From positions 1-43,929 of IMG/VR virus record IMGVR_UViG_3300037486_000239: a stretch of 43,929 bases of DNA. One strand, written 5' to 3'. This document shows positions 5,826 to 43,929 of the stretch, one piece after another. A program made the position numbers and the translations under genes. The stretch's first letter is position 1. Each line of letters begins with the position of its first letter. This stretch comes from a virus. The notes under the pieces were generated by a model. That model did no database searches. It saw only the letters and a list, made by a program, of their open reading frames with translations, and was not told where the DNA came from.

Positions 5826-5847
5826 TTAGAACGTGCTCTTTCTAATT

Positions 5848-6294
5848 ATGATAAAATTCCTGGTCCTGGCCTTTCTCCTGATGCCCGCGATGGCCGAGAT
5901 GCCGGACCCATATTATTACTACGTGCAACAGGAAAATACCACCCCGGAAGCCATTTGCTCCGCATTGGAAGAAATAAATTATAGTGCTCTATATAGTGAT
6001 ACCTTCGACTGCACTCAGATATCAGCCCATGCAGAACGGAAGCTAGAAAACATGGGCATAGATACTAATCTAATTATAAATTTTGAAATGTCTCACTGCT
6101 ATATCCAGGCCCTAACCTCGGAAGGATGGCTAATGTTCGAGGCATGCACTGACACCGGGGAAGTATTCGCCCTAAGAGACATATCGAGCGAATACTACTC
6201 TGAAAACGTCACCGTCTACCGAAATATCTATGAACTTCTATCTGACGGAAACGGTTTTCAAGATGTCAACTGGTGGGATACCCTAGAAAGCTGA
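5848..6294 (+). CDS. Secreted small protein inserted in the tail operon (148 aa)
   Basis: A lone plus-strand gene between two minus-strand tail genes; its end overlaps the end of the tail-tip gene by 12 bp. The start MIKFLVLAFLLMPAMAEMPD gives a clear signal peptide with probable cleavage near residue 16, and it fits the leaderless promoter at 5818. A GTG at 5833 is an alternative. The mature part is acidic, Tyr-rich (PYYYYVQQENT) with four Cys (residues about 39, 56, 85 and 101) and N-x-S/T sites, so it is probably exported and perhaps disulfide-bonded. It resembles a moron: own promoter, opposite strand. Function unknown. Confidence 0.75.
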   Translation: MIKFLVLAFLLMPAMAEMPDPYYYYVQQENTTPEAICSALEEINYSALYSDTFDCTQISAHAERKLENMGIDTNLIINFEMSHCYIQALTSEGWLMFEACTDTGEVFALRDISSEYYSENVTVYRNIYELLSDGNGFQDVNWWDTLES

Positions 6295-8487
6295 GATCAC
6301 GGCAGACACATTTACATTTCCACTGATAGCACATTTCACGGTGCCGCTTCCCCCATACTCGCTTAGGCTTATTGTCAGTGAGCTTTTTCCCCCGACCGTC
6401 ACCAGGCCCGATAGGTCGATAGCATCCAGCGAATCCCCAATATATAGGCCACCCGAGCCGGAAAATGGAGAGCCTGGTACATGCGAACCATTACAGAGCA
6501 CGGCCAACGTGAGTAGGGCAGGCGAGCCGGTGGATAGCTCATTTACGAGATAGTCCATCCCGGCATCTTCTTGGATTACCTGATCGGAATGCTGAGAAGA
6601 TCCGGCGCGAGTTTTTGCGGTATCGGTTCCTCCGGTGTGTGATTGATCCGCGGCAGCCGCGGTATTGTGGATCGGCACGGCATGCGTGTGTGATTCTGGA
6701 TTCATGTACTGAGTACTGCCACCCGGACCCCTTGTGATACTCAATTGTCCAGTACCGTTTTCTATGTAGCAATCGCCCCAGCAGTCCCCATAATCAGGAT
6801 CACACGACCCATAAAATTCGCCGACGCCATCAATATCTATTACGGAATCGGGTGCGCCCGTGTGCGTGTGACTGACTCCGGCGATTATTTCCCTCCCACC
6901 AGACGCAGCCGCCGTTTGTGCCGGAACGCTGTGCGCCGTCATTGCCTCCGAGCTTGTAGCCTTCCCACCATAGCCTGCATGTGATCCTACCGAGCTATGA
7001 GACGGCCCGCTCACGGTTGCCGATTTAACAGAGGACTTATACCAGTCTATCTTAATATTTAGCAGAACTTGGTATGGGAAGTTAGGATCTATTTCGCCGT
7101 TCTCCTCGGAATCCTTCAGCTCAAATTCTAGTTGCAACGGCGTAGAATTGTCTAAGTTCTGGCTGTCTATTGACCAGCTCCAGGCGTTCTTTGTGTGGCT
7201 GCCGTAGAAGCTGGATAGGACTTGCTGTACCTCATCCCCGGCCTTCAGAAGTTCTTGCAGGGTCCGCAATCTTTGGCCGACCTCCAGAGTCATAGCGCCG
7301 CTTTTCATGCCGATATGCTTGATGCGCTTATATACCGGCTGATGCCCCTTTCGGATTACGCCCACATAATTCCCGACCGCCTGACTCCAATCCTGATCTA
7401 TGCAGCGGATATTGTAGATCGTGGGATCCTGGCAGTCCGCAAAAACTTTTGTCGTGGCCTCCCTGAGCATTGTACCGAATAGCCCGCCCGCCTGGTAGAT
7501 GCCTTCCCGCCAGGTGCCAGGTGTGGTAAAGTCGATTGCAGCGGCGCACTGTTGAGTCAGGCCCGACCCCGCCCCCTGGCCTAATAGAGCCTGCAAATGC
7601 CCATAGCCGTCTATCTGATCTATCGAAATTTCGGCGTTCTTGTCCTCGATGTAGGTGGCCACCGGCTCCGACGCACTGCCCAGGCCGACGACCACCGAGC
7701 CATCCAGATAAGCATAGCCGTCCTTTTCGTACCTGACGGAATATTCCAGGCCACCCGCCAGGATAAGGCTCTTGATGGGGCTGGAAAGCTTGCTTGCGCC
7801 TACCTCATAGCAGACTGCGAAAGTGCTTGAGCCGGTTGAGATTGTGCCGAGCCTGAGCAGGGTATCCTTGAAATTCGGTGATATGATGAGATGCCCGTCG
7901 GGGCTCGCACTGTCAGAACACCAGATATAGAGATCTGTTGAGGATTGATACCAACTTGAGGCGACTACGGGGATGGCAGTTCTTTTCGTGAGCAGGGTAG
8001 TATCCTGGTAGATCTGAGTCAGAGTTCCGAACCGGGAAGATGTACCGGCCCCGACAATCTTGTAGACGCTGCCCGAATGCAATACCCATGAGCCGCGCGG
8101 GATCAGGCCGTTTGCCATTGCGAGCAATCCCACGACAGAGCCGCCCATTGAGCTGGCCAGCATGGAATTGATCGAGGTTCCAGCGGGATACCTGTAGAAC
8201 TGGCCGATCCGCTCATCCAGCAAGGCCTCGGCAGAATCGATTGTCAGTGTATCATATTCAGATTTGCTCTGATCCAGCTTTTTCACATGGCCCAATAAAA
8301 GGATCTTGCCCCGCCTGGTTGCCTTCGCGGTGCCTTGCGGATCGAGGCCTGATGCCTTTTCGATCTTGGCCGCGATCCGCCGGGGCTTGTCTAAGTATTC
8401 GTCGTAGGCTGGCGGCTCAGTTAGGACGGGCTTAACGGGTTGCCCGTCCGGGTTGGTTATCTCTATCTCGCTCATTGAGGTTGCCAC
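6283..8487 (-). CDS. Tail-tip / tail-associated receptor protein, His-rich (734 aa)
   Basis: It follows the distal-tail protein, where siphoviruses carry the tail-associated (Tal) protein. The first 450 residues are mixed alpha/beta with a long tail-hub-like region (VRYEKDGYAYLDGS through VYKRIKHIGMKSG). From about residue 480 it becomes Gly/Ser/Thr-rich with His motifs (HTHTG, SHTHAVPIH, QSHTGG), like HxH motifs that bind metal in tail-tip fibres. A Cys cluster (CDPDYGDCWGDC) sits between them. The C-terminus is strand-rich. Role: tail tip and receptor contact. The assignment rests on gene order and composition. It overlaps the upstream gene by 16 bp. Confidence 0.7.
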   Translation of the reverse strand: MATSMSEIEITNPDGQPVKPVLTEPPAYDEYLDKPRRIAAKIEKASGLDPQGTAKATRRGKILLLGHVKKLDQSKSEYDTLTIDSAEALLDERIGQFYRYPAGTSINSMLASSMGGSVVGLLAMANGLIPRGSWVLHSGSVYKIVGAGTSSRFGTLTQIYQDTTLLTKRTAIPVVASSWYQSSTDLYIWCSDSASPDGHLIISPNFKDTLLRLGTISTGSSTFAVCYEVGASKLSSPIKSLILAGGLEYSVRYEKDGYAYLDGSVVVGLGSASEPVATYIEDKNAEISIDQIDGYGHLQALLGQGAGSGLTQQCAAAIDFTTPGTWREGIYQAGGLFGTMLREATTKVFADCQDPTIYNIRCIDQDWSQAVGNYVGVIRKGHQPVYKRIKHIGMKSGAMTLEVGQRLRTLQELLKAGDEVQQVLSSFYGSHTKNAWSWSIDSQNLDNSTPLQLEFELKDSEENGEIDPNFPYQVLLNIKIDWYKSSVKSATVSGPSHSSVGSHAGYGGKATSSEAMTAHSVPAQTAAASGGREIIAGVSHTHTGAPDSVIDIDGVGEFYGSCDPDYGDCWGDCYIENGTGQLSITRGPGGSTQYMNPESHTHAVPIHNTAAAADQSHTGGTDTAKTRAGSSQHSDQVIQEDAGMDYLVNELSTGSPALLTLAVLCNGSHVPGSPFSGSGGLYIGDSLDAIDLSGLVTVGGKSSLTISLSEYGGSGTVKCAISGNVNVSAVISAF

Positions 8488-14500: not shown

Positions 14501-15043
14501 CTATGTAGCCGATGCGGTAGACGGATTGCCAGAAAGTTTCTTCATCCTCTCGATCCTGGCCAGATCCTCGGCCAGCTCCAGCCGTGCAACTTCCATCTTG
14601 GCTTCCTGCTTCTCCCTGTTGATCCTGGTTGCCTCTTCGTTCCTGGCTATATTTTCCTGCCAGGTCACGATAGAAGAAGGGTCCGTGGCTACCAGATATG
14701 CTCTGTAGACTTCGTTTTGCAGGGTCTCAAGATTACCGCCGCGCTCTATGTAGCCCTCAATGGCCGCGCTGGCCTCGGACGGTTCGCCCTTCTTGCCCTC
14801 CAGGCCCGATAAGCCGGTTGCAGCGGCTACGGCAGCCTCCAGAACTTCGGCGATTCTCAGGAAGCCGCTGAGTATGTAGCCGGCGTGCATCGGCGATGTG
14901 GCTATAGACTGACCCTTCTCGTTCTTCAGGTCGAGCCGCTTCAGGATCTCCCTGCCGCGCTTCTCGAAATTCTTGATTGCGTTGAACGTCCACTTGATTT
15001 CTCTTGTCTCGTCCATGTCCAAAATCACTGCATTTTCGCTCAT
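14501..15043 (-). CDS. Tail assembly chaperone (gpG-like, 180 aa)
   Basis: Starts MSENAVILDMDETREIKWTF with GAGAGG 8 nt before the ATG. The N-terminal half, a DETREIKWTFNAIKNFEKRG pattern followed by helices, is typical of siphovirus tail chaperones that bind tail-tube and tape-measure proteins. The last part is a long helix (ATRINREKQEAKMEVARLE). It lies between the tail tube and the tape measure, as expected. The protein stops at 14501, but a -1 frameshift would extend it by about 80-100 residues. A TATA-like box (15066-15073) is 26 bp before the ATG. Confidence 0.75.
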   Translation of the reverse strand: MSENAVILDMDETREIKWTFNAIKNFEKRGREILKRLDLKNEKGQSIATSPMHAGYILSGFLRIAEVLEAAVAAATGLSGLEGKKGEPSEASAAIEGYIERGGNLETLQNEVYRAYLVATDPSSIVTWQENIARNEEATRINREKQEAKMEVARLELAEDLARIERMKKLSGNPSTASAT

Positions 15044-15065
15044 CTATTATTCCTCTCATTATGAA

Positions 15066-15073
15066 AATATATA
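15066..15073 (-). promoter_or_regulatory. Possible internal promoter before the tail chaperone
   Basis: TATATATT on the minus strand is centred 26 bp before the ATG of the chaperone gene, the same spacing as at the other leaderless candidates. The gene also has a ribosome binding site, so this may be chance or a secondary promoter. Confidence 0.3.
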
Positions 15074-15093
15074 ATTGCCGGAGGTTCGCCCGG

Positions 15094-16035
15094 CTACTCA
15101 AGATACAGTTCGCCCGCGCCCTTAACGACGACATCCTGCTTTTGAGCGTCATTGGCGTTAGCGATCAAGTTGGTCATGCTCTGGATTGCCCCTTTTCCGA
15201 TAGCCCACGGCACCGTGGCCAGCACGGAATAGAACTTCCAATAATACTGTACGGCCAGGGCGGCCAACGGAATAGAGCCATTGTAGTAGAACGCCCCGGC
15301 GCTGATCTCCCAGGATCGCGAGCCGATGATAGAAGAGCCCCATCCGGAATCATCGACTGAAGAGGTGTCTATATCCTTGCCATCGATTTTGCATTTTCCA
15401 TCAAAGAGCCCTACCACTTTCTGGAAGGCCAATTCTGAGCGGCGCACGCCGGTTACTCTAACCAGATCATCCGAGTTCAAGGCTACTGCCGTGGTAATCT
15501 TGCCCTGGATCAGATTTATGGTGCTCGTGGAGGTGATGTCCACCCACCCACCCGCGCCGTGTACCTGTTTCTCGATCAGAGAGCAAGAAGACCAGTAGCG
15601 ATATCCAGAGGCAGCCTGCCAGATGGTATGATCTCCAGAGTCCACCATAGACATCTGAGTGAACGCCACGCCATCCACCCCATGCGAGTGTGCCAGCGCG
15701 CCCGTCACGCCCGCGCCCGCGCTCCCTGGAGGAAGCCTGGCAGTCCAAAGGACTGCGGCCTCGGCGTCTGCGTTCACGGCAGCTACAATCTGGGCGGCGG
15801 TGCTGGTCGCATTTCCGGAGCCATCGGTGGCGCTGTTTACGGTGATGTCACTGCCCGAATCGGTCACCGACAGAGCCGTGTCATTCCCGCTCACCACGAT
15901 TTCGATAGACGGCGTGGTATTATTTTTTGAGACAAAGCATATGTCCCTAGCCGATCCGAGGTTGGCCGTGACGACATACTCCTCCGTCTCATCCCGATAG
16001 AGAGCGGCGGATAGGCCGCTCACGGCTGAAGTCAT
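15094..16035 (-). CDS. Major tail (tube) protein, long paralogue with inserted domain (313 aa)
   Basis: The start MTSAVSGLSAALYRDE at 16035 matches the start of the neighbouring paralogue (MTSAISG). The C-terminal part repeats the paralogue's signature: KIDGKDIDTSSVDDSGWGSS followed by SRSWEISAG, a TP901-type tail-tube pattern. Between them are about 170 extra residues with a strand-rich module (IEIVVSGNDTALSVTDSGSD, then DGSGNATSTAAQIVAAVNAD), as found in other phage structural proteins and likely displayed on the tube surface. It directly follows the short paralogue, two bases after that stop, so this is a gene duplication plus domain insertion. Confidence 0.75.
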   Translation of the reverse strand: MTSAVSGLSAALYRDETEEYVVTANLGSARDICFVSKNNTTPSIEIVVSGNDTALSVTDSGSDITVNSATDGSGNATSTAAQIVAAVNADAEAAVLWTARLPPGSAGAGVTGALAHSHGVDGVAFTQMSMVDSGDHTIWQAASGYRYWSSCSLIEKQVHGAGGWVDITSTSTINLIQGKITTAVALNSDDLVRVTGVRRSELAFQKVVGLFDGKCKIDGKDIDTSSVDDSGWGSSIIGSRSWEISAGAFYYNGSIPLAALAVQYYWKFYSVLATVPWAIGKGAIQSMTNLIANANDAQKQDVVVKGAGELYLE

Positions 16036-16037
16036 GC

Positions 16038-16463
16038 TTAGGTCAACTCGCTCAGAGCGCCCCGGCTCTTGATGGTCCAATCGGCCTTCTGTTGGGTGGA
16101 TGTTCCGGCCAGAACGATATTGCCGGACGTGACGCCTCCCTTCCCGGAAAAGCCCTTCGGGGTTGCCGTGGGAGTGCCGGAGGTCAGGGCCTTGATGAAG
16201 AGATCCGAGCCGGCTATGATGGCAGCCTTGACAAGCACGTAGGCAGCATCCAGGATGATCAGGTTGTGGGTTGTGGTGATCTCCCAGGATCTTGCGCCGG
16301 AGATGGAGCTACCCCATCCAGAATCATCCACGTTGGAAGTGTCGATGTCCTTCGCATCAATTTTTAATTTCAGATCGGACAATTCGGCGAGCTTGACGTA
16401 TGTGCCGTCAACTGTCGCACAGCACCACAGAGTGCCGGTCATGCCAGAGATTGCAGATGTCAT
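16038..16463 (-). CDS. Major tail (tube) protein, short paralogue (141 aa)
   Basis: A compact tail-tube protein: MTSAISGMTGTLW, strands, then KIDAKDIDTSNVDDSGWGSS and ARSWEITTTHN, a helix (AAYVLVKAAIIAGSDLFIK) and a strand-rich end. The family builds hexameric rings that stack into the tail tube. GGAG stands 11 nt before the ATG. The AT-rich 78-bp gap upstream holds a 6-bp hairpin (16492-16515) and TTTAAA-like elements and may carry its own promoter. Which of the two paralogues forms the bulk of the tube is not known; the short one has the usual family length. Confidence 0.8.
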   Translation of the reverse strand: MTSAISGMTGTLWCCATVDGTYVKLAELSDLKLKIDAKDIDTSNVDDSGWGSSISGARSWEITTTHNLIILDAAYVLVKAAIIAGSDLFIKALTSGTPTATPKGFSGKGGVTSGNIVLAGTSTQQKADWTIKSRGALSELT

Positions 16464-16541
16464 CTTTTAATCATCTCCTTGTAGAATCATCAAGGCCGCG
16501 AAAAATCATGGCCTTAAAAACGATTTAAAAATTTAATCCGA

Positions 16542-16748
16542 TTATCGAGATTTAAATTTGGGATAGCTATTGGCATTCTTCCCCATATATCCAAAAACGC
16601 CGCCCGCCAATTTTCGATGTACTGTCGAAATGACGGGATCGCTTGAAATAACAGGCGGATCTGGCTTGGCGCTGGACACCGCTAATTTAGCCAAGAAAAT
16701 GCGGGCGTTGGCTAAATCAACTAAATCAATAGCGTGAGCTGCATCCAT
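16542..16748 (-). CDS. Small protein, function unknown (68 aa)
   Basis: Starts MDAAHAIDLVDLANARIFLA with AGGTG 8 nt before the ATG. Helical N-terminus, Pro-rich middle (KPDPPVISSDPVIST) and basic C-terminus. It stands between the Gp12-like connector and the tail-tube genes, flanked by AT-rich gaps with T-runs on both sides. No family recognised; the ribosome binding site and isolation support it as a real gene. Confidence 0.55.
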   Translation of the reverse strand: MDAAHAIDLVDLANARIFLAKLAVSSAKPDPPVISSDPVISTVHRKLAGGVFGYMGKNANSYPKFKSR

Positions 16749-16814
16749 AATATAAACACCTTCGTTTAATAATGTAGAAAAACTATTATTAGAAAAAATT
16801 ATATCTGTATAAAA

Positions 16815-17207
16815 TTAAGCCCCTTTCACGATCTCAAAATTCTGGTAGAATATCGTCCTATTCCTTCCGTCTACTTCCAGCTTGCAGGGCACGCCCCGGC
16901 CCCGGATCGTGAGGTACTGATGGCCCGACAGGGCTATGTCATGCTGAGCGTGCAGAGCCGTATCAACGGCCTCGGCCTTCGTCTGCGCGGCGCTGTAGGT
17001 CGCTGCCCTGACCTCTACATGCAGGTCGGGATATTGAATGTCACAATACAGCTCCTTGCTTCGCCCTGGCCTGGCATAGAGACATAAAACCGCATCCGGG
17101 GCATCCGGCATTTCTCCGAGATAAATTGTCCTGGTCGAGCTGGTGCCGGGGTAGACGCCGACGCCTGCCGTATTGAGTTGGACTGCTATGTCTTCCAAGA
17201 ATGACAT
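16815..17207 (-). CDS. Minor capsid / tail-completion protein, Gp12-like (130 aa)
   Basis: MSFLEDIAVQLNTAGVGVYP, followed by AVLCLYARPGRSKELYCDIQ and the helix TYSAAQTKAEAVDTALHAQH, matches the pattern of the phage minor capsid Gp12 / tail terminator family: a helix, strands, a DLHVEVRA strand and a long helix. These proteins join the tail to the head-tail interface. It follows the 52-aa gene with a TGATG one-base overlap. In related siphoviruses it normally stands next to the Gp10 and Gp11 equivalents, which here lie 4.3 kb upstream. Confidence 0.75.
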   Translation of the reverse strand: MSFLEDIAVQLNTAGVGVYPGTSSTRTIYLGEMPDAPDAVLCLYARPGRSKELYCDIQYPDLHVEVRAATYSAAQTKAEAVDTALHAQHDIALSGHQYLTIRGRGVPCKLEVDGRNRTIFYQNFEIVKGA

Positions 17208-17366: not shown

Positions 17367-17753
17367 TCAGAACACCGTCAGATTGCTGCTATTGTTCAGG
17401 AAGGCCAACGCGTTCGCCCTCCATGCATTCTCCTCATCGGAGCATGCTGGGCAAAGGGCCTGAGCTATTGCGTCGGATGCCTTCTCCATCGGGCCGGGGA
17501 ATACCACCGGGCCAGGAGACGCGCCCGGAAGGTCGAATATTGGAGCCTGCTCTTCTTCTTGCGCTGCACAAGGCCACAGCACTGTGATTATAGCAATTAT
17601 TATTAAGATCCTCATTACCATCTTGTTAACCTCCTCCTGCGCTTGATTTGCTCGCAATTTGTTAATAGAGTACAATATTGCTAGATTCAAGCAACAAGAA
17701 AACATGGAGAAGACAAGTGCAAGTTTTCCTATGCACTCATCTGAGAATATCAT
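17367..17753 (-). CDS. Membrane protein with possible internal second start (128 or 84 aa)
   Basis: The ATG at 17753 forms an ATGA overlap with the BhlA-like gene and gives MIFSDECIGKLALVFSMFSC, a first membrane segment (about residues 8-33). A second hydrophobic segment (MRILIIIAIITVLWPCAAQ, about 47-65) starts at an internal ATG (17621) with a perfect AGGAGG 9 nt upstream, which alone would give an 84-aa secreted or lipid-anchored product with its Cys at the end of the segment. The mature tail is acidic with a CPAC pair. Two starts from one gene recall holin/antiholin pairs. It ends the lysis-like group. Confidence 0.6.
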   Translation of the reverse strand: MIFSDECIGKLALVFSMFSCCLNLAILYSINKLRANQAQEEVNKMVMRILIIIAIITVLWPCAAQEEEQAPIFDLPGASPGPVVFPGPMEKASDAIAQALCPACSDEENAWRANALAFLNNSSNLTVF

Positions 17754-18049
17754 GATTTTCCGTTGTTGGCGCATGGCCTCTTTTCCAGGTTATCTTCCAT
17801 GCGCTCATTGAGCCGCAGTATTTCCTTGGCCTGCCGGTCATGCTCCTGATAGCATTTTGTCAGCTCTTTTTGACTTTCCATTATTTCGCACAATTTCGTC
17901 ACTATGCGGTCAGTCGAAGCCTCCCATTCTCGGGGCATCCTGTAAACTAGCCATGAGCAGAGCCCTAAAACGAACATGAAGAGCAGGCCGAAGAGGGTAA
18001 GAAAAAAGTCCCCCCCGGCGCTCTCTAAAACGGTCTGAGTTGGGTCCAT
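17750..18049 (-). CDS. BhlA/UviB-like holin candidate: one membrane segment plus coiled coil (99 aa)
   Basis: The start MDPTQTVLESAGGDFFLTLF at 18049 overlaps the protease stop by one base (TGATG). One membrane segment (about residues 14-36) is followed by a polar coiled coil (REWEASTDRIVTKLCEIMES, then QEHDRQAKEILRLNERMED), the layout of BhlA/UviB small holin-type proteins. Coupling to the caspase-like gene implies equal production. The assignment is by architecture only. Confidence 0.6.
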   Translation of the reverse strand: MDPTQTVLESAGGDFFLTLFGLLFMFVLGLCSWLVYRMPREWEASTDRIVTKLCEIMESQKELTKCYQEHDRQAKEILRLNERMEDNLEKRPCANNGKS

Positions 18050-18795
18050 CAGAAAGGCACCGCCTGCAGATTGCTCCCCTCTAGTTGTGGATGCTGGCCG
18101 GGAATGTAGCCCGTCACATATCCGGCAACGATATTCATTATCTCGGTTGCCGTTTTCGTGGGATATGCTCGGAGAGCCCAACAGAGATAGAGCGAGAAGA
18201 TACTATGGGCGAGCCCGCCAGACATGCCGGAATAGGACAGCTCGCCCTCGGCACATGCCGCCCAAAGCCTATGATTCAGGCTGGCCGGCACAATGGCCCG
18301 CTCGGCTTTCGGCTTACGCTTCTCGGGCTTAAACTGAATTGCCTCAGACGGCCAGGCAGGATCAAGCTGAGGCGCACCGTCTGGCCGCTTCTCCCTGGTG
18401 GATGTGCCGGCATAGCACATGTCCGTCACGATATCAATCTTAGAACCGCTTGCAGCAGAGGCGAGAACCGCGCCAATCCAGTCGTCGGTAATGGGCAGGA
18501 GATCAGAGCTGGCGAAAGCCTCATCGTAGCCATCTGCCTCATCGCCTGAGGTATCGGCTACCCGTCCACCATGCCCGAGGAGCACGATGGCCGCCGAATC
18601 TCCGGAGGCCAGGCCGAAGACGAACGCCTGCATGGCGGCCAGGATCTGCGCCCTGGATTGCGCCCCCCGCAGGATCGTTCGCAGAGGGAAGCCGCGAATA
18701 TTCAGCGTATTATTCCAGTTGGCGATATTGTTAGGGGTAGCGTCCAGGGCGTACGGCGCCGGGTAAGTCGGGCCGATGATCAGAGCCTTTTTCAT
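18049..18795 (-). CDS. Caspase-like (metacaspase, clan CD) protease (248 aa)
   Basis: A full-length caspase-fold p20-type domain. It opens KKALIIGPTYP; a helix after RGAQSRAQILAAMQAF leads to the strand AIVLLGHGG with the catalytic His (about H75); the metacaspase acidic segment DGYDEAFASSD...ITDDW follows (89-106); then IVTDMCYAGT with the catalytic Cys (about C127). The later IWAACAEGELSYSG-type region forms the substrate side. Metacaspases are Cys proteases that usually cut after Arg or Lys. No signal peptide, so release would need a holin. It sits between a two-segment membrane protein (upstream) and a BhlA-like protein (downstream), the place of an endolysin. No other lysis enzyme is visible. 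Alternatives: virion maturation protease, or an anti-host factor. Confidence 0.85.
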   Translation of the reverse strand: MKKALIIGPTYPAPYALDATPNNIANWNNTLNIRGFPLRTILRGAQSRAQILAAMQAFVFGLASGDSAAIVLLGHGGRVADTSGDEADGYDEAFASSDLLPITDDWIGAVLASAASGSKIDIVTDMCYAGTSTREKRPDGAPQLDPAWPSEAIQFKPEKRKPKAERAIVPASLNHRLWAACAEGELSYSGMSGGLAHSIFSLYLCWALRAYPTKTATEIMNIVAGYVTGYIPGQHPQLEGSNLQAVPF

Positions 18796-19004
18796 GCTTT
18801 CTTCCCGGTGAACACGCCCACCAAATTAGATGCAATCGTTCCCAGGATGGCGATATAGGCCATGTCGACTTTCAGAAAAACAGCAGCTAGAAGGCCCATG
18901 AGCACCACCGCCGTAAGCGAATAGAGCCGAAAGCCCTTCGTCTTCAGGCCGAATATTTCCATTTCACCTTCGGCCATGCGCACGGTGAGATCTTCCTCGA
19001 CCAC
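18792..19004 (-). CDS. Holin candidate with two membrane segments (70 aa)
   Basis: The start is GTG at 19004, five bases after a GAGGTGA site and next to the upstream stop. A charged N-terminus (VEEDLTVRMAEGEMEIFG) is followed by two hydrophobic segments (SLTAVVLMGLLAAVFL and MAYIAILGTIASNLVGVF) and a basic tail TGKKA. This is the size and topology of class II holins. It ends in an ATGA overlap with the protease gene. An ATG at 18977 is an alternative start that would keep both segments. Confidence 0.65.
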   Translation of the reverse strand: MVEEDLTVRMAEGEMEIFGLKTKGFRLYSLTAVVLMGLLAAVFLKVDMAYIAILGTIASNLVGVFTGKKA

Positions 19005-19157
19005 CTATGTCACCTCTTCGGCTATGCCCATTTCGATCAGCTTCTTAGCTTCCCGCTCAGTTACCCCTCGATCATCCGGGCCGACCGTCTGGATGGTCGA
19101 GCCCGCCCGGAGAATCCTATCTCCGAACGGCCAGCGTTTCAGTATGCGCAGCTTCAT
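19005..19157 (-). CDS. Small protein, function unknown (50 aa)
   Basis: MKLRILKRWPFGDRILRAGS then TIQTVGPDDRGVTEREAKKL, preceded by GAGGTAAAT. The layout, a short strand-rich start with an acidic Ser/Thr loop and a C-terminal helix (EREAKKLIEMGIAEEV), is like the N-terminal part of the 70-aa head gene at 25319-25531, so the two may be related small virion proteins. It leads into the holin gene. Confidence 0.6.
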   Translation of the reverse strand: MKLRILKRWPFGDRILRAGSTIQTVGPDDRGVTEREAKKLIEMGIAEEVT

Positions 19158-19159
19158 AT

Positions 19160-19588
19160 TTACCTCAGAGTCGATGTATTGAACGGCGCGGCTTTGCCCC
19201 GGCCCATCTTCCGGAGGGCATTCTCGGGATCTATGCCATAGCGGGCCATGTAGAGCCGCTTTGGCAGGGCCGGACCGCCGCCACCTGGTCGATATACTTT
19301 CTTCCCGAGTTCGTCTGCCATGCCCGCAGGAATCCGGATCGCCTCATCGGAGAGCATCGGAACGCACATAGTATCCGCCACGGATGGCAGCCAGGCATCC
19401 AGAGCCGCGTCATCCTCGGGCGCGTCGGCGGGAAGCACGAGCACCCGGCTACAGTGCGGACAGGACACGAGCGCCTTGCCTCCGGTGCTGCCTTTGTGGC
19501 GCACGGCCAGCTTGATCTCCCTCGTGGAAATGACTATGTCTTCCTCGCAGACCGGGCAGATGATATCCAGGCCATCATCCTCAGCCAC
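19160..19588 (-). CDS. Zinc-ribbon protein (142 aa)
   Basis: The N-terminal 50 residues hold two Cys pairs, CPVCEEDI and CPHCSRVL, a zinc ribbon. The rest is Pro/Gly-rich with basic ends (KKVYRPGGGGPALPKRLYMA). Zinc ribbons like this bind nucleic acid or serve as adaptors. It starts inside the end of the 72-aa secreted protein gene (8-bp overlap) and is followed by the 50-aa and holin genes. Function not known. Confidence 0.6.
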   Translation of the reverse strand: MAEDDGLDIICPVCEEDIVISTREIKLAVRHKGSTGGKALVSCPHCSRVLVLPADAPEDDAALDAWLPSVADTMCVPMLSDEAIRIPAGMADELGKKVYRPGGGGPALPKRLYMARYGIDPENALRKMGRGKAAPFNTSTLR

Positions 19589-19799
19589 GGCGCACGCCTC
19601 CGATTACTGCTGTTCCGTTTTGCATCTCAACGGGATTCGGAAAGCTCACCGTATCCGAGAGCCATGGATCTATCCCGAAGATCTCAATGATTTCGCCGTC
19701 GCTGTTCACCATCAGCTCATCCTCGCCGGGATCGATTTGCGCCGCAAAAGCCACGCCAAGAAAGAGCATGGCCAGCAGCGCCAATATCTGTACTTTCAT
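19581..19799 (-). CDS. Small secreted protein (72 aa)
   Basis: MKVQILALLAMLFLGVAFAA is a clear signal peptide with cleavage near residue 20. The mature part is short and acidic (QIDPGEDELMVNSDGEII). GAGGACT stands 6 nt before the ATG. It starts the minus-strand part of the cassette, divergent from the plus-strand RHH operon. It could be a secreted lysis or envelope factor; no family is recognised. Confidence 0.65.
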   Translation of the reverse strand: MKVQILALLAMLFLGVAFAAQIDPGEDELMVNSDGEIIEIFGIDPWLSDTVSFPNPVEMQNGTAVIGGVRRG

Positions 19800-21362: not shown

Positions 21363-21511
21363 AGCTCCTCTTTTCTGATTATTATTTTTCTAGCTATTAT
21401 CTCCGGATGCATCGAGGCCTTGCGCCTCGATATCCAGACCTCCAGCCATTCCAGAGTCGCCAGATCGAGCCCTAAGCAAAGCTCCTCCAGAAAGGCCAGG
21501 TCTGCGCTCAT
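21359..21511 (-). CDS. Tiny protein between the Gp11-like and DUF4417 genes (50 aa)
   Basis: MSADLAFLEELCLGLDLATL then LEVWISRRKASMHPEIIARK, ATGA overlaps at both ends (21508-21511 and 21359-21362). Helical, moderately hydrophobic. Coupled to the connector on one side and DUF4417 on the other. No family. Confidence 0.65.
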   Translation of the reverse strand: MSADLAFLEELCLGLDLATLEWLEVWISRRKASMHPEIIARKIIIRKEEL

Positions 21512-21846
21512 CCAAAAATCGCCTTCATCGCAGCTGCTACGTCTTTGTGATACTGATCTTCGTTATCTAGGAGCGGCTGCCGGAGGTAATTCGGGCCGGT
21601 GCCGGCGTGGCTGGGCGTGTATCCCTCGGACTCATGCAGCCAGGCGGCTTGAGGCGTGTTAAAGCTGATTTCTGCGCCCTTCTCCAGCTCTGTGACTGTG
21701 GCGGAATTGCGGGTTTGGGATGACTCCACCGGACAGAGGTTCACGGCTTCGCCTTTCACAATTTCCGCCGTCATCTGGGCAACCTCGTGTGCGGCCTGCT
21801 GAGCAGCGGCTATGAGCCTGTCGCCATTCCATTCTACCTTCGGAAT
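21508..21846 (-). CDS. Minor capsid protein, Gp11-like (112 aa), probable non-ATG start
   Basis: The clear ORF begins at the ATG 21774, but the family pattern starts earlier: PKVEWNGDRLIAAAQQAAHE and VAQ precede it, then TAEIVKGEAVNLCPVESSQ and FNTPQAAWLHESEGYTP, the minor-capsid Gp11 layout (helix, P-x-x-S-G strand, AxxLHE). Between the upstream stop (21856) and that ATG the only plausible start is ATT (21846-21844), 7 nt after GAGG; GTG or ATG are absent. So a 112-aa protein from ATT is proposed; an 88-aa product from ATG would lack the first helix. Confidence 0.65.
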   Translation of the reverse strand: MPKVEWNGDRLIAAAQQAAHEVAQMTAEIVKGEAVNLCPVESSQTRNSATVTELEKGAEISFNTPQAAWLHESEGYTPSHAGTGPNYLRQPLLDNEDQYHKDVAAAMKAIFG

Positions 21847-26258: not shown

Positions 26259-27263
26259 TTAGATGAAGTTCCAGATTTGGCCGTGGAACTCTTCTGCCCC
26301 AATGTCTATGCTGACCTGGCCGTAGAGCTGTCCGAGATCTGCCGCGCCACTCATCGCGATTGGAGTGTAGAAGAAGTAGCCTCCAGGCCTCCCATTCTTC
26401 TCAGGGACGGGCAGGAATACCGGGCTGATCTTGGAAAAGTCCACGAATCCGAGAGTGGCGGCTGGCATCTGCTGTACTTCCACACATGGGAACTTTCCGG
26501 CCTCTGTGACGATGGTATCGATCATGCCGTTCACAGTGCCGATGTTATTTGTCGGAGCCGCGAAAGGCGATATGCCGTACAGATCGTAGAGCTTCTTCAG
26601 GGAAGAATACCGGCCCACGATAGTGAGGTTGTTGGTAGGGACCAACGAGGTCTCTTTCATGAGCAGCATCAGAGCATCCACGTCAGCCGTGCTCAGTGCG
26701 TCCCCACCAGCGTCTACATCGTTGGTACTGAGCGTAACGCCTGCGCCGCCTCCCTGTACCGTCCGGGAGAACATGCCCCTCATCTGGTAGGCGGTTGTAT
26801 CTGCGGCGGATGTCTGGTAGAGGCCGTTGAGCATGTGATATTCAATATCCTGAGCAGCCTGCTTCAGAGTCATATTCAGGTTAGAGACAAATGGATCATT
26901 TACATCCTCCAATTCACCCGTAATAGCTATGCCAGAGAGCTTCTGCAAGTCAGACTCCGAAGCAAAGCTAGCGCCTATGCCGTAGTGGAAGATCTGGCAG
27001 ACCTGAGTATCCTGACCCCGGCCGTAGACTCTGGGGGTGGGCGCGGTGAAAGATCCTTCTTCCGTGGTGGTCTTTTGGGAGCTGGCGTCGAGGGCATTGT
27101 GGCTATTCATCGCGAACGTCCAGCCGTTCGCCTTCTTTGCGCCGCCGCCTCCCAGTCCTCCGATACGAGAGAGGAAGCTGGTTATAGGGCTGCCCTGTGT
27201 GATGAGCTGCCCATGATACTGAGGCGTGATGAAAGTTGTCGCTATGTGACTTGAATTTGCCAT
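26259..27263 (-). CDS. Major capsid protein, HK97-like (SU10/DUF5309-type) (334 aa)
   Basis: MANSSHIATTFITPQYHGQL with GGAG 10 nt before the ATG. The pattern fits the SU10-like major head family: an early G-rich E-loop-like region (IGGLGGGGAKKANGWTF), the spine-helix region (AAQDIEYHMLNGLYQTSAA), the A-domain-like NNLTIVGRYSSLKKLYDLYG, and a strand-rich end. The family has the HK97 fold. It stands after the scaffold and before decoration-like genes. No cleavable delta domain is visible and no prohead protease is recognised next to it. Confidence 0.85.
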   Translation of the reverse strand: MANSSHIATTFITPQYHGQLITQGSPITSFLSRIGGLGGGGAKKANGWTFAMNSHNALDASSQKTTTEEGSFTAPTPRVYGRGQDTQVCQIFHYGIGASFASESDLQKLSGIAITGELEDVNDPFVSNLNMTLKQAAQDIEYHMLNGLYQTSAADTTAYQMRGMFSRTVQGGGAGVTLSTNDVDAGGDALSTADVDALMLLMKETSLVPTNNLTIVGRYSSLKKLYDLYGISPFAAPTNNIGTVNGMIDTIVTEAGKFPCVEVQQMPAATLGFVDFSKISPVFLPVPEKNGRPGGYFFYTPIAMSGAADLGQLYGQVSIDIGAEEFHGQIWNFI

Positions 27264-29016: not shown

Positions 29017-30469
29017 TCTCTTCCTCATTTATCGCGGACAGCTCGATCACAGGGGCAGCCGGGGCGGCTTGGCGGGCCTCTTCCTCTGCGCCCTTCAGCC
29101 TGGCCAGCTCCACATCAAACGCCTCTGTGCCTTCTTGCATTCCCTGCCAGACCAGCTTTCTCTCCAGGCTTATTGCGCTCATAGAATCCCACAATTGGGC
29201 CTCTGTGGCGGTCTCTATCGGGTCCTCGGGGATGCCATCCTGCAAAAGAACCTGTATATCCTTCTCGGCGATCTCCGGCCCGTTGAGCTGGCTCCAAAGA
29301 TGCAGCACTTTGGGTATGGCTTTCTCGGCGGCCCTGGCCAGCTTGCCGACCTTGGAGAGTGTCGGTATAAGCCTGATCCTGAGCGCTGTGCCGCTCTCGG
29401 CGGTGCCGGCGTCCTTGCCCGCCAGGAGCACCCTGGAGAGCTGGAGCATCTGCAGGAGCTGGTCCATGCTCTGTTCTATCGCGGCGTTCACGTTGGCGAG
29501 CTGGGCATCCCATACCATCAAAGACGGCGCAGAATCGCCCGCCTGCGTGATGATAGGCTGGCCGGGGCGATAGACCCATTCCTGGGTTTTGTGATCGAAC
29601 GTAGTTGCCGACTCGGGAATTACCGGCGTCGGGCTGGTGAATTTCGCCAGGACTTCGGCCCGCTGCGCAAAGAGCAGCTCCAGGGATTCGACCAGGGAGA
29701 GGACGGATGGCCTGTAGTCTGAGCGGCCATAATAGCGTTCTGAAGAGATCGCGTTGTGGACTTGGACTATGAGAATGTCATCCACGGCGGGCTTCTGGAT
29801 GCCCTGTGCATCGACCTCATGGGAGGCGAAGGCCGGGAAGTCCTTGAGCCGGAGCGGGCCTTTTAGGACTTTGCCGCCGCCCAGGATCTTCTCTATGCCC
29901 TGAACCTTAATCGGCGTGCTATCTGCGATCTGGTAGACTACGTGCTGGATCTGGCCAGCGGTGTGAATCGTGAATTTGACGAATTCGTTTTCTTCCGTTT
30001 TGCCATTTCTCTCTACAGTTTCCTTAAATGTGGTGAAAATAACATAGGCCACAACTTCACGGATATTACCCGGATTTACTACTAAGTATGTATTTTCGGG
30101 ATTTATAACCTGTATTCCAGTATCCGAAACTTCATACAACCCATGCCCGTAGCGAGAGACATCGATGAAAACTTCCTCATCGGGCCTGTCGGGCAGATCG
30201 TCTCGCGGGGCGGTAATCTCGACTTCTTCCCCGAAGAGCAGAGAAAGATAGCTGGTCGTGGCCATCTCCGGCCAGTCGAGAATGACCTTCTGCTTTTTGG
30301 GATCCTTGTCTGCATCGGCCAGATAGGCGATGTAGCGGGGAAAGATCTTCTCGTGGAGGCCGTTGTAGACCTGCCTCATGTAGGCGTGCTCTTTGAGCCT
30401 GGCGGCCTCCTCAGCATCGCGGGGCGGCCAGCTTTTGCCTTCGGCTATCCAGGAGAGATCGTTTAACAT
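28991..30469 (-). CDS. Portal protein (SPP1 Gp6-like, 492 aa)
   Basis: The size, gene order and content fit a phage portal: a helical N-terminus (SWIAEGKSWPPRDAEEAARL), crown-like strands (GLYEVSDTGIQVINPENTYL), the long-range YGRSDYRPSVLSLVESLELL stretch and a Glu/Ala-rich end. Portals form the dodecameric channel for DNA entry. It follows the terminase large subunit and methylase and overlaps minor capsid protein 2. No ribosome binding site is obvious at 30469; the start overlaps the methylase end by 7 bp. Confidence 0.75.
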   Translation of the reverse strand: MLNDLSWIAEGKSWPPRDAEEAARLKEHAYMRQVYNGLHEKIFPRYIAYLADADKDPKKQKVILDWPEMATTSYLSLLFGEEVEITAPRDDLPDRPDEEVFIDVSRYGHGLYEVSDTGIQVINPENTYLVVNPGNIREVVAYVIFTTFKETVERNGKTEENEFVKFTIHTAGQIQHVVYQIADSTPIKVQGIEKILGGGKVLKGPLRLKDFPAFASHEVDAQGIQKPAVDDILIVQVHNAISSERYYGRSDYRPSVLSLVESLELLFAQRAEVLAKFTSPTPVIPESATTFDHKTQEWVYRPGQPIITQAGDSAPSLMVWDAQLANVNAAIEQSMDQLLQMLQLSRVLLAGKDAGTAESGTALRIRLIPTLSKVGKLARAAEKAIPKVLHLWSQLNGPEIAEKDIQVLLQDGIPEDPIETATEAQLWDSMSAISLERKLVWQGMQEGTEAFDVELARLKGAEEEARQAAPAAPVIELSAINEEENAGQEPAQ

Positions 30470-31209
30470 GTTACCTTCTCTGCGAAATGTGACAGTGTCT
30501 TAGGGATCGCGGCTATGCGACGGCGGGCAATCTCGACATATTTCGGCTCTTTCTCAATGCCTATGAAATGCCTGCCAGTATTCAGAGCGGCTATGGCCGT
30601 TGTACCTGATCCAATGCAATTATCTAAGACCAAATCGCCTTCATTGGTGTAAGTCTTGATGAGGTATTCAAAGAGAGCGACGGGCTTTTGGGTGGGGTGT
30701 AGGCCCGTTTCATTTGAAAAGATTAAAACTGATGTGGGGAATCTATCGCCGCTATTATCTGTTATCCATCCAGCAACGGTTTGATCTTGCGTCGTCTCTC
30801 CTGCAGAAGAGCTTCTGCAGGAGTATGGCTTTCCTTTCGTTTTTTGCGGATAATACAAGGGCAATGATCCCGAAAAAACCAATATATTTTCGTGTCGCTT
30901 TAGAGGATATTTATTAGCGTTTAGAAATCCCCCGCCGTTGCTCTTCTGCCATATCCATTCGCACCTAAACCATTTCAAATTTGAAGTAATTAGCATTGAT
31001 GTAAACGGCTGGCTCGCCGTTAGCACAATCGCCCCATGATCCTTTATAAGCCTCTTATATTCCTTCCAAAGAGGCTCAAAAGGAATGACCTGATCCCACT
31101 TACAAGCGGTCGTGCCATATGGCAGATCGCAGAGGATCATATCAATGGACTTATCGGGGATGCCAGGCATGACCTCCAGGCAATCGCCCTGGATAACCGT
31201 GTCTATCAT
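30463..31209 (-). CDS. DNA adenine methyltransferase, beta class (248 aa)
   Basis: The start MIDTVIQGDCLEVMPGIPDK at 31209 is fixed by an ATGA overlap with the zinc-finger gene. Catalytic motif IV is DLPYGTTACKWD near residue 28, the SAM-binding motif I, DNCIGSGTTAIAA, is near residue 201; this order marks the beta class (N6-adenine or N4-cytosine), and DLPY favours adenine. It ends with GRHFIGIEKEPKYVEIARR as in complete enzymes. Solitary viral methylases protect DNA from host restriction. Its position between terminase and portal is unusual. Confidence 0.85.
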   Translation of the reverse strand: MIDTVIQGDCLEVMPGIPDKSIDMILCDLPYGTTACKWDQVIPFEPLWKEYKRLIKDHGAIVLTASQPFTSMLITSNLKWFRCEWIWQKSNGGGFLNANKYPLKRHENILVFSGSLPLYYPQKTKGKPYSCRSSSAGETTQDQTVAGWITDNSGDRFPTSVLIFSNETGLHPTQKPVALFEYLIKTYTNEGDLVLDNCIGSGTTAIAALNTGRHFIGIEKEPKYVEIARRRIAAIPKTLSHFAEKVTC

Positions 31210-31430
31210 TTCTGCTCTGGTATCCTTCCAGCTTCTTCTATCGCCTTGTAATCGTTTTCTTGAATTCGATGATAGCAGCCCTGGCAGCATAGGCGATCCT
31301 GCAGCACGGTAAGCCCGAGCTTGTTTGGCGTGATGCCCGGCACATGTGGCACAATTGGGGTGAACTCGATCCTGGCCACTGGCACCGGGAACTCCTGGCG
31401 GATGGGCTGGCCGCAAAATAAGCAGATCAT
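31206..31430 (-). CDS. Zinc-finger protein beside the terminase (74 aa)
   Basis: Four Cys (CLFCGQ near residue 3 and CCQGCYHR near residue 48) form a probable zinc site, and the middle is strand-rich (VPVARIEFTPIVPHV). It overlaps the terminase stop by ATGA and the methylase start by ATGA. Possible partner in packaging or a DNA-binding adaptor. No family name given. Confidence 0.65.
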   Translation of the reverse strand: MICLFCGQPIRQEFPVPVARIEFTPIVPHVPGITPNKLGLTVLQDRLCCQGCYHRIQENDYKAIEEAGRIPEQK

Positions 31431-39654: not shown

Positions 39655-40118
39655 CTATTCCACCGCCCATCTATCGAGCCTGGCCGGGATCGCGGCTATG
39701 CGACGGCGGGACATATCAATATATCCAGGATTCAATTCAATTCCTATGAAGCGCCTGCCTAGCTTTTTGGCTACCAGACCCGTCGTGCCCGCGCCGAAGA
39801 AGGGATCTAGGCAGATTCCACCCACCGGGCACCGGGTGGGCTGTTGGGATGATAATTGCCCCATGAACCTGCATAAGAATCTCCCAAATTCAGCCAAAGT
39901 GTCCCTTCATCCTTCAGCACCCGTCTTACTTCCCGGAAGACCTCCACCAGCCGGGCCACGTAGGCTTCGGGGCTCGCTTCGAGCCCTATCTGCCCAGGCA
40001 CTCCATAGTCCCTGAGGCCGAAGTAGGGCGGGCTCGTGATGCAACAGTCCACCGATTCAGCAGGAAGCTTTCGCATTTCCTCCAGCGCATCCCCGCAAAA
40101 AATCGTGTCTACCATCAT
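39655..40118 (-). pseudogene. Broken DNA methyltransferase (internal deletion and frameshift)
   Basis: The N-part (40118 down to 39807, 103 aa) has MVDTIFCGDALEEMRKLPAE, the catalytic motif TSPPYFGLRDYG and [11 protein letters not shown], then runs out after NSPPGARW. The C-part, in another frame (up to about 39850), has [18 protein letters not shown] and [20 protein letters not shown] beta-class enzyme needs about 150-200 residues of target recognition domain between these; they are absent, and the junction lies in a near-perfect inverted repeat (CCCACCCGG...CCGGTGGG, about 39820-39840). So this is not one sequencing error but a deletion remnant; partial products are unlikely to methylate. 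Confidence 0.7.
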
Positions 40119-43347: not shown

Positions 43348-43929
43348 ATGTGTGTCGGAATAGCGATTATTGTGGTAGCCCCTGAAGAGGGGCCATTACA
43401 AATTTTCGGGAAAGAAGGCAACAGTTCACACGACACGCTGTTGCATGAATACGTTCCTATAGAATTACATAACCGGAGCGGGAAGGTAGAATATACGTTT
43501 CCGAACTGCATCACGCTTGATGCTCCGGACGAAGAGTGCAAAAACCAGGCAGTGGCCTTCGGCGTGGCCGAAATTGTGTTCGGCGTGGCCAGGCTAAAAG
43601 AATCCGTGGCCGCTCAGATCATGGCATGGCTACAGACCAATCCGCTCCGGCATAACCTGAAAACTCTGCACCGAGCGAACCTGGTCGGGGCGGACCTGCG
43701 CGGGGCGAACCTGAGCAGGGCGGACCTGCGCAAGGCGGACCTGAGCTGGTCGGACCTGAGCGGGTCGAACCTGCGCAAGGCGGACCTGAGCGGGTCGAAC
43801 CTGAGCGAGGCGAACCTGAGCGGGGCGAACCTGCGCAAGGCGGACCTGAGCTGGTCGGACCTGAGCGGGTCGAACCTGCGCAAGGCGGACCTGAGCGGGT
43901 CGAACCTGAGCGAGGCGAACCTGAGCGGG
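43348..43929 (+). CDS. Pentapeptide-repeat protein, N-terminal part (3' partial)
   Basis: GAGG stands 5 nt before the ATG at 43348. The first 105 residues form a separate domain (MCVGIAIIVVAPEEGPLQIF, HDTLLHEYVPIELHNRSGKV, FGVARLKESVAAQIMAWL), then pentapeptides follow: AN/ADLS units to the end of the window. It continues at base 101 of the window and ends at 199, in total about 226 aa. The repeats fold into a rod that can mimic DNA. The N-domain is not recognised. The repeat count is provisional. Confidence 0.85.
   Translation, partial: MCVGIAIIVVAPEEGPLQIFGKEGNSSHDTLLHEYVPIELHNRSGKVEYTFPNCITLDAPDEECKNQAVAFGVAEIVFGVARLKESVAAQIMAWLQTNPLRHNLKTLHRANLVGADLRGANLSRADLRKADLSWSDLSGSNLRKADLSGSNLSEANLSGANLRKADLSWSDLSGSNLRKADLSGSNLSEANLSG
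43725..43929. repeat. 105-bp tandem repeat in the pentapeptide gene and right terminal copy
   Basis: The unit (seven pentapeptides, 105 bp) starts at 43725 and again at 43830; the second copy is the right 100-bp terminal repeat. In the joined molecule two full units and a 60-bp partial unit (106-165) follow one another with almost no base differences. Confidence 0.85.

Follow-up and report, generated by a model that had tools for sequence, protein, structure and literature searches.

Results

The window, i.e. the whole IMG/VR virus record of 43,929 bases analysed here, encodes a predicted caspase-fold cysteine protease that probably belongs to a lysis module. The protease gene is one of four coupled genes on the minus strand at 17367-19004, which encode a 70-aa protein, the 248-aa protease, a 99-aa and a 135-aa protein. 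We put at about even the chances that cutting the cell envelope is the main action of this protease, which would then do the work of an endolysin. The features used in the argument are as follows; related contigs and loci are cited by L numbers.

5833-6294, plus strand: 153-aa secreted protein of unknown type, no family match
16815..17207, minus strand: tail terminator (PF12691, 7.7e-16), downstream bound of the slot
17367..17774, minus strand: 135-aa protein, hydrophobic at 19-37 and 52-70, its tail acidic, from hydropathy
17750..18049, minus strand: 99-aa protein with an N-terminal TM segment (17-35) and a coiled-coil-like tail, TGATG-coupled to the protease
18049..18795, minus strand: putative C14 / metacaspase-type cysteine protease, 248 aa, from Pfam, model, Foldseek and predicted dyad
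18792..19004, minus strand: 70-aa hydrophobic, holin-like protein with a GTG start, from hydropathy, no family match
19005..19157, minus strand: 50-aa ORF separating the zinc-ribbon gene from that of the 70-aa protein, ORF only, no Pfam match
19160..19588, minus strand: zinc-ribbon protein, a conserved marker directly upstream of the cassette, from sequence matches
19581..19799, minus strand: 72-aa ORF with a signal-peptide-like N terminus, from hydropathy
21508..21774, minus strand: head-tail connector-like protein, upstream bound of the slot, from its match to vir515

Predicted fold and catalytic residues of the protease

The 248-aa protein is, judging from its sequence and its structural model, a genuine caspase-fold protease (C14, metacaspase-type), and it would be proteolytically active. 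It matches Peptidase_C14 (PF00656) over residues 2-243 with E=1.2e-15 in the Pfam scan, and a profile of 15 viral relatives finds solved metacaspases with a best E-value of 5.6e-45. The AlphaFold model, built with 15 sequences, has a pLDDT of 80.9 and a pTM of 0.80; the top Foldseek match is 3bij (1.1e-13), followed by Arabidopsis metacaspases. An earlier sequence-only reading of this DNA had made its case depend on a caspase-type fold, and the model bears it out. The viral structure library returned as significant named matches nearly exclusively caspases of eukaryotic giant viruses, with no prokaryotic-virus protein among the top ones. Residues 132-171 form a low-confidence linker in the model, the place where caspases and metacaspases usually get processed, so the window protease may be processed there as well. 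Hydropathy gives neither a signal peptide nor a membrane segment.

The motifs which the sequence-only reading had named are all present on the minus strand, i.e. H75 in LLGHGG (codon 18571-18573), C127 in DMCYAGT (codon 18415-18417) and the metacaspase acidic stretch, which reads DTSGDEADGYDEAFASSD. H75 and C127 are invariant across 15 aligned relatives, as are D81, D85, E86, D88, D91 and E92 of the acidic stretch and the DD pair at 104-105 in the same alignment. The protein satisfies the C14 pattern (His before Cys, HG, D-x-C-x-x-G) and has the DxxGDExDGxDE stretch after the His. The N-terminal GINxY...L.GC.ND motif, which is typical and not catalytic, is retained in the L032 and L033 caspases and missing from the window protease, which reads GPTYPAPYALDATPNN. 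The window caspase is thus a divergent one, with no GCxND and a long branch in the tree.

Membrane proteins coupled to the protease

Small membrane proteins are coupled to the protease on both sides. The sequence-only reading had described the upstream one as a two-segment protein coupled through ATGA. The 70-aa ORF does overlap the protease gene in this way (junction AAGCATGAAAAAG), while a 19-residue hydropathy scan passes a single stretch, 33-51, and a second crossing of the membrane by the hydrophobic region is possible by eye. Pfam and PHROG give no family match for this protein; small membrane proteins hold the same position in L032 and vir515, as compared by position.

The downstream 99-aa protein had been called BhlA-like with a TGATG start. 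The start is as described, and the best lysis match, holin phrog_1296 at E=0.073, is not significant. More generally, none of the small TM proteins in the window significantly matches a holin family in Pfam or PHROG. The relatives search with the 99-aa protein returned L033 only, where the protein at 6764-7117 is 52% identical (9e-39) and likewise follows a caspase. The reading frames of the 99-aa and 135-aa proteins overlap, and the acidic tail of the latter is probably exported. The architecture of the 135-aa protein recurs in L032 (5877-6263) and L098 (2232-2621), which are homologues of each other (1.5e-6); the homology of the window copy to these counterparts is not significant (0.52).

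The virus and its host

The window appears to be the genome of a tailed virus of archaea, an archaeal host having been implied by the sequence-only reading. Its 100-bp identical ends lie in a pentapeptide-type repeat frame (1-175, 43675-43929) that apparently runs across the join, and hence the record is probably a circular assembly. The genome carries TerL, portal, minor head, scaffold, MCP, tail tube and tape measure genes, together with a D5-type primase, a Rad3-like helicase and an HTH_45 regulator; no tRNA genes were found in the window. The primase shows 49% identity (8e-116) to its counterpart in Caudoviricetes sp. vir515, a circular bioreactor virus whose host is recorded as Methanosarcinales; the next among the matches listed are no better than 5e-17. 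Portal, minor head (42%), connector, tail terminator, major tail (34%) and TerL (32%) are also in common with vir515. The Rad3-like helicase has its best listed E-values with haloarchaeal viruses, at 5e-32 versus 2e-25 for Serratia phages. The HTH_45 family was matched in each of the four archaeal control genomes and also in a single bacterium (Thermotoga), and it is absent from the other caspase loci, which are partial contigs. An N6_N4 DNA methylase fragment was observed at 39807-40118, besides the full gene at 30463-31416.

The genome is mosaic, since its TerL is closer to actinobacterial prophages (40-48%) than to vir515 and its MCP has distant actinophage kin. Strong mosaicism is also seen among the window (26259-27263), L051 and L052, whose MCPs are 73-81% identical though their TerL proteins are only 38-39% identical. 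The MCP scan of GTDB contigs found no provirus, and the TerL scan of genomes returned mostly actinobacterial loci and two Methanobrevibacter prophage loci, with no Methanosarcinales-type provirus. A DNA search for the host in 152 genomes, of another archaeal group, gave two marginal 45-bit matches, which were disregarded. We therefore base the host assignment on gene kinship rather than on a spacer or a provirus, and on this basis the host is probably an archaeon of the Methanosarcinales type. Such archaea have protein S-layers; to our knowledge their walls contain neither murein nor pseudomurein, the latter not being a wall polymer of the Methanosarcinales. The host could be sheathed, although nothing indicates this, because the current NCBI taxonomy does not list Methanotrichaceae under Methanosarcinales.

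The slot in related viruses

The cassette lies in a slot that is conserved between the window and vir515, in the order of zinc ribbon, small TM protein, protease with TM partners where present, and tail terminator; L032, L033, L098, L052 and L059 give partial views of this order. The slot of vir515 runs from the connector (14514-14861; 27% identical to that of the window, 3e-7) to the tail terminator (15638-16009; 26%, 1e-7) and has a zinc ribbon and a 61-aa small membrane protein, with no protease and no further annotated gene. Both flanking genes recur in the window, with extra small genes in between. Its zinc ribbon is 34% identical to that of L032 (3243-3629, 2e-9) and matches that of L059 (3342-3644, 1e-4); the L032 copy in turn matches vir515 14866-15156 (1e-4) and so links the window and vir515 copies. 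The protease is not universal, being missing from the vir515 slot.

The sequence-only reading had suggested a survey of related viruses for the same gene trio. Parts of the cassette do recur in L032, L033 and L098; vir515 has only the membrane protein, and L052 and L059 have a papain-type protease. L032 has a zinc ribbon, an 84-aa two-pass protein, a caspase, a 120-aa protein with a C-terminal TM segment and a 128-aa two-segment protein. In L098 the caspase is followed by homologues of these 120-aa and 128-aa proteins (3e-29 and 1.5e-6), and in L033 by the homologue of the 99-aa protein, after which the contig breaks off just inside the gene of a further membrane protein. The caspases of the window, L032, L033 and L098 form one group, together with one additional long-branched row, in a quick tree (support 99).

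Two unrelated cysteine protease families occupy this one slot with similar partners, as far as gene order and family matches indicate. The MCP of L052 is 73% identical to that of the window and the next gene 76%, and no caspase is found on the 30-kb L052 contig. Instead, L052 has between its head and tail genes a papain-type C1A protease (PF00112, 1.7e-11 and 5.2e-10); the start signal of its gene overlaps a TM protein's stop, and two further TM proteins come after it. L059 has a C1A protease 84% identical to that of L052, a zinc-ribbon relative of the window's, a 128-aa protein with a C-terminal TM segment, and a protein related to the two-pass protein of L032 (2e-5). In L060 the C1A gene is present without such membrane partners. 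The alternation of C14 and C1A families in one slot argues more strongly than anything else here for proteolysis itself being the function. No sheath-like protein was recognized on either contig: L052 has a signal-peptide protein with no Pfam family, and that of L059 matches no relevant solved structure. Near the C1A cassette of L052 we also observed by eye a reverse-transcriptase-like ORF (15944-17038, YGDDG), possibly a diversity-generating element.

Related caspases in phages

Related caspases are found next to endolysins in bacterial phages. We collected 75 caspase loci by IMG/VR scans, which fall into 61 clusters at 60% identity. The annotated phage genomes have no match for the window protease, and other viral caspases occur there only in an unannotated phage of 485 kb and in a Salmonella assembly contig. 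At about 20 phage loci a related caspase adjoins endolysins of about six unrelated families, i.e. GH25, CHAP, N-acetylmuramidase, Amidase_2, M15 and GH24-like, on the same strand and within ~0.8 kb of the caspase. Pfam confirms GH25 (L002, L036, L043), CHAP (L006), N-acetylmuramidase (L004), Amidase_2 (L046) and DUF5675 (L042, L049). By reading, supported by Pfam counts, we add Amidase_2-like lysins in L092, L122 and L152, with L116 slightly further off, M15-like ones in L050, L109, L136 and L154, and a GH24-like one in L127. The start and stop signals overlap or abut in L006, L043, L122, L127, L154 and L092. The caspases of L122, L127 and L136 belong to one cluster at 60% identity and have in the same place Amidase_2-like, GH24-like and M15-like lysins, respectively, suggesting that the lysin was swapped beside a kept protease.

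The association is statistically moderate and differs between caspase groups. Among 208 genes near the caspases, Pfam gives 8 wall hydrolases and 3 DUF5675 proteins, and among 150 far genes at least one wall hydrolase (M23), counted for the far set over the best 25 of 56 families. With the same restriction on the far set, the enrichment over all loci (11/208 versus at least 1/150) has p=0.013, and p=0.054 without DUF5675, again for the best 25 of 56 families. When the lysins were used as queries against the 2,436 ORFs that make up the 75 loci, every relative but one lay no further than 830 bp from the caspase; this test is biased, since the queries had themselves been taken from close neighbours. 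In the tree group adjoining the clade of the window, a lysin or DUF5675 was labelled by eye within 1 kb in 13 of 27 rows. At an assumed chance rate of 10% this has a probability of ~5e-7, the rows being related and the labels made by eye; nine rows are left when those with DUF5675 only are excluded (9e-4 at the same assumed 10%, for the same related, eye-labelled rows). Around 40 of the 61 clusters have no lysin nearby, some of their contigs being incomplete, and the jumbo-phage-type caspases (e.g. LR745208, L044), which fall outside the group next to the window's clade, lie mostly among unrelated genes.

Several features of these phage caspases are worth recording. DUF5675 recurs within 0.8 kb of the caspase in L042, L049, L107, L112 and L156, and we therefore suggest that it belongs to lysis cassettes. 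The caspases L049 5260-6126 and L050 5764-6570, 51% identical, have the His block (HGTQ...GDE...DEA...DD) at the C terminus behind DSCFSGT, which by its sequence would be a segment permutation of the caspase domain with the His block moved from the middle; the L050 model, for want of relatives, reaches a pLDDT of only 38. Ten of 58 phage caspases, i.e. L042, L049, L050, L101, L107, L109, L112, L113, L116 and L122, begin with Met-Cys and continue with basic or hydrophobic residues. Some are membrane-anchored, with a C-terminal TM segment in L003 and L043, which speaks for work at the membrane.

Search for other candidate lysis enzymes

No murein or pseudomurein hydrolase was recognized by Pfam and PHROG scans of nearly all window ORFs, in agreement with the sequence-only reading, and these scans identified no prohead protease in the window either. 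The 153-aa secreted protein stands out as a possible second envelope enzyme. By eye its Cys, His and Glu are spaced as in transglutaminase-type cysteine proteases, and it has no match in Pfam, PDB or phages. That the caspase takes the place of the endolysin, as the sequence-only reading had held, is suggested to us by the lack of a recognized lysin in the window together with the papain-type protease in the slot of L052 and L059; the caspases of bacterial phages weigh on the other side, since they accompany a full endolysin.

Discussion

We propose that this region serves as lysis slot in a tailed virus infecting a methanogenic archaeon. The caspase-fold protease would be made in the cytoplasm alongside the small holin-like membrane proteins. 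These proteins might open the membrane, by a holin-like action, and the protease could thereby reach the cell envelope, or be activated there, and cut an envelope protein, presumably of the S-layer, or of the sheath if the host has one. It would act at the time of lysis. A holin-dependent enzyme fits because the protease would be synthesized in the cytoplasm without an export signal and has membrane partners. Metacaspases, which typically cleave after Lys or Arg, are commonly calcium-activated, and we speculate that a calcium surge at membrane opening could switch the protease on. In bacterial phages with a lysin, the caspase may clear envelope proteins or act on lysis proteins. As it accompanies a full endolysin there, its role in general may be accessory or regulatory.

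An alternative hypothesis, which we consider less likely, is that the protease belongs to the lysis module but works inside the cell, where it would trim or trigger the holin-like partners or their inhibitor, or stop the host shortly before lysis through cleavage of cytoplasmic proteins, like the caspases acting on gasdermins, the wall being opened otherwise. The lack of an export signal and the membrane-anchored relatives count against envelope cutting and fit work at the inner face of the membrane; the intracellular reading is also favoured by the tight coupling to TM proteins and by the complete endolysins with which the bacterial-phage relatives often travel. There is also a precedent in gene transfer agents, in which lysis requires the peptidase-domain proteins LypA and LypC and no holin-endolysin pair is recognized (PMC13236601). 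Against it, no cleavage site or gasdermin-like partner was identified, and the papain-type protease of L052 and L059 is left unexplained, being easier to understand as a second way to degrade protein.

It is improbable that the protease serves host takeover or counter-defence and sits as cargo beside the lysis genes. About two thirds of the viral caspase clusters, jumbo-like contigs included, have no close lysin, and the gene is missing in vir515. However, the overlap with lysin reading frames recurs in several lineages, and similar membrane partners are retained in L032, L033 and L098. Still less probable is a head or tail maturation protease placed by chance between connector and tail genes: its position between head-completion and tail genes and the want of an identified prohead protease would suit it, but L052, with its closely similar MCP and no caspase on 30 kb, speaks against a capsid role, and the slot of vir515 has no protease, the relatives adjoin endolysins and the coupling is to membrane proteins. 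We retain a lysis module as the preferred reading.

The cassette resembles known systems in parts. Like metacaspases and orthocaspases (C14, clan CD), the window protease has the predicted fold, the His-Cys order, D-x-C, DxxGDExDGYDE, the DD pair and the flexible linker; unlike them it is virus-encoded in a lysis slot and has lost GCxND. Eukaryotic giant-virus metacaspases, which make up nearly all of the significant viral structure matches, belong to large eukaryotic viruses with an unrelated gene context. The holin-endolysin cassettes of tailed phages likewise combine small TM proteins with an enzyme in one short operon with overlapping start and stop signals, and relatives of the window protease sit inside such cassettes; here the enzyme is a predicted protease and no murein hydrolase was recognized. 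We know of no C14 protease that serves as an endolysin.

Other lytic proteases differ from it. The pseudomurein endoisopeptidases PeiW, PeiP and PeiR of methanogen viruses, described as lysing methanogens (PMC4592898, PMC6189367), are also cysteine peptidases, of a different family and with a different substrate. A survey of prokaryotic metacaspases reports four fused to Amidase_2 and eight phage-related operons in Clostridium (PMC3501461), so that a metacaspase is tied to a peptidoglycan amidase as in our phage loci; these metacaspases come from cellular genomes, and the portion of that paper available to us proposes no lysis-cassette role and no archaeal virus. A 2024 paper on sheathed archaea considers that virus proteases are possibly needed and, in its accessible part, names none (PMC11576556). 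The sequence-only reading had noted that caspase-fold proteases are not known as an established class among the lysis enzymes of archaeal viruses, and we found no caspase lysis enzyme of phages or archaeal viruses in the openly accessible literature.

What is new here is a lysis cassette with a protease as its candidate enzyme. Of the archaeal dsDNA viruses covered by a 2025 survey, only 10.9% had detectable lytic proteins (PMC12596118), and the exit of most tailed viruses from archaea lacking pseudomurein is an open question. We suggest tentatively, at somewhat less than even chances, that tailed viruses which infect protein-walled archaea use interchangeable C14 (caspase-type) and C1A (papain-type) cysteine proteases for lysis, their release depending on dedicated membrane proteins, and that caspase-fold proteases are widespread in phage lysis cassettes, where they have gone unrecognized. 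If true, the protease lysis cassette would be a concrete and testable answer to how archaeal viruses leave their hosts, and caspase-fold enzymes, best known from cell suicide, would enter virus-made lysis in prokaryotes.
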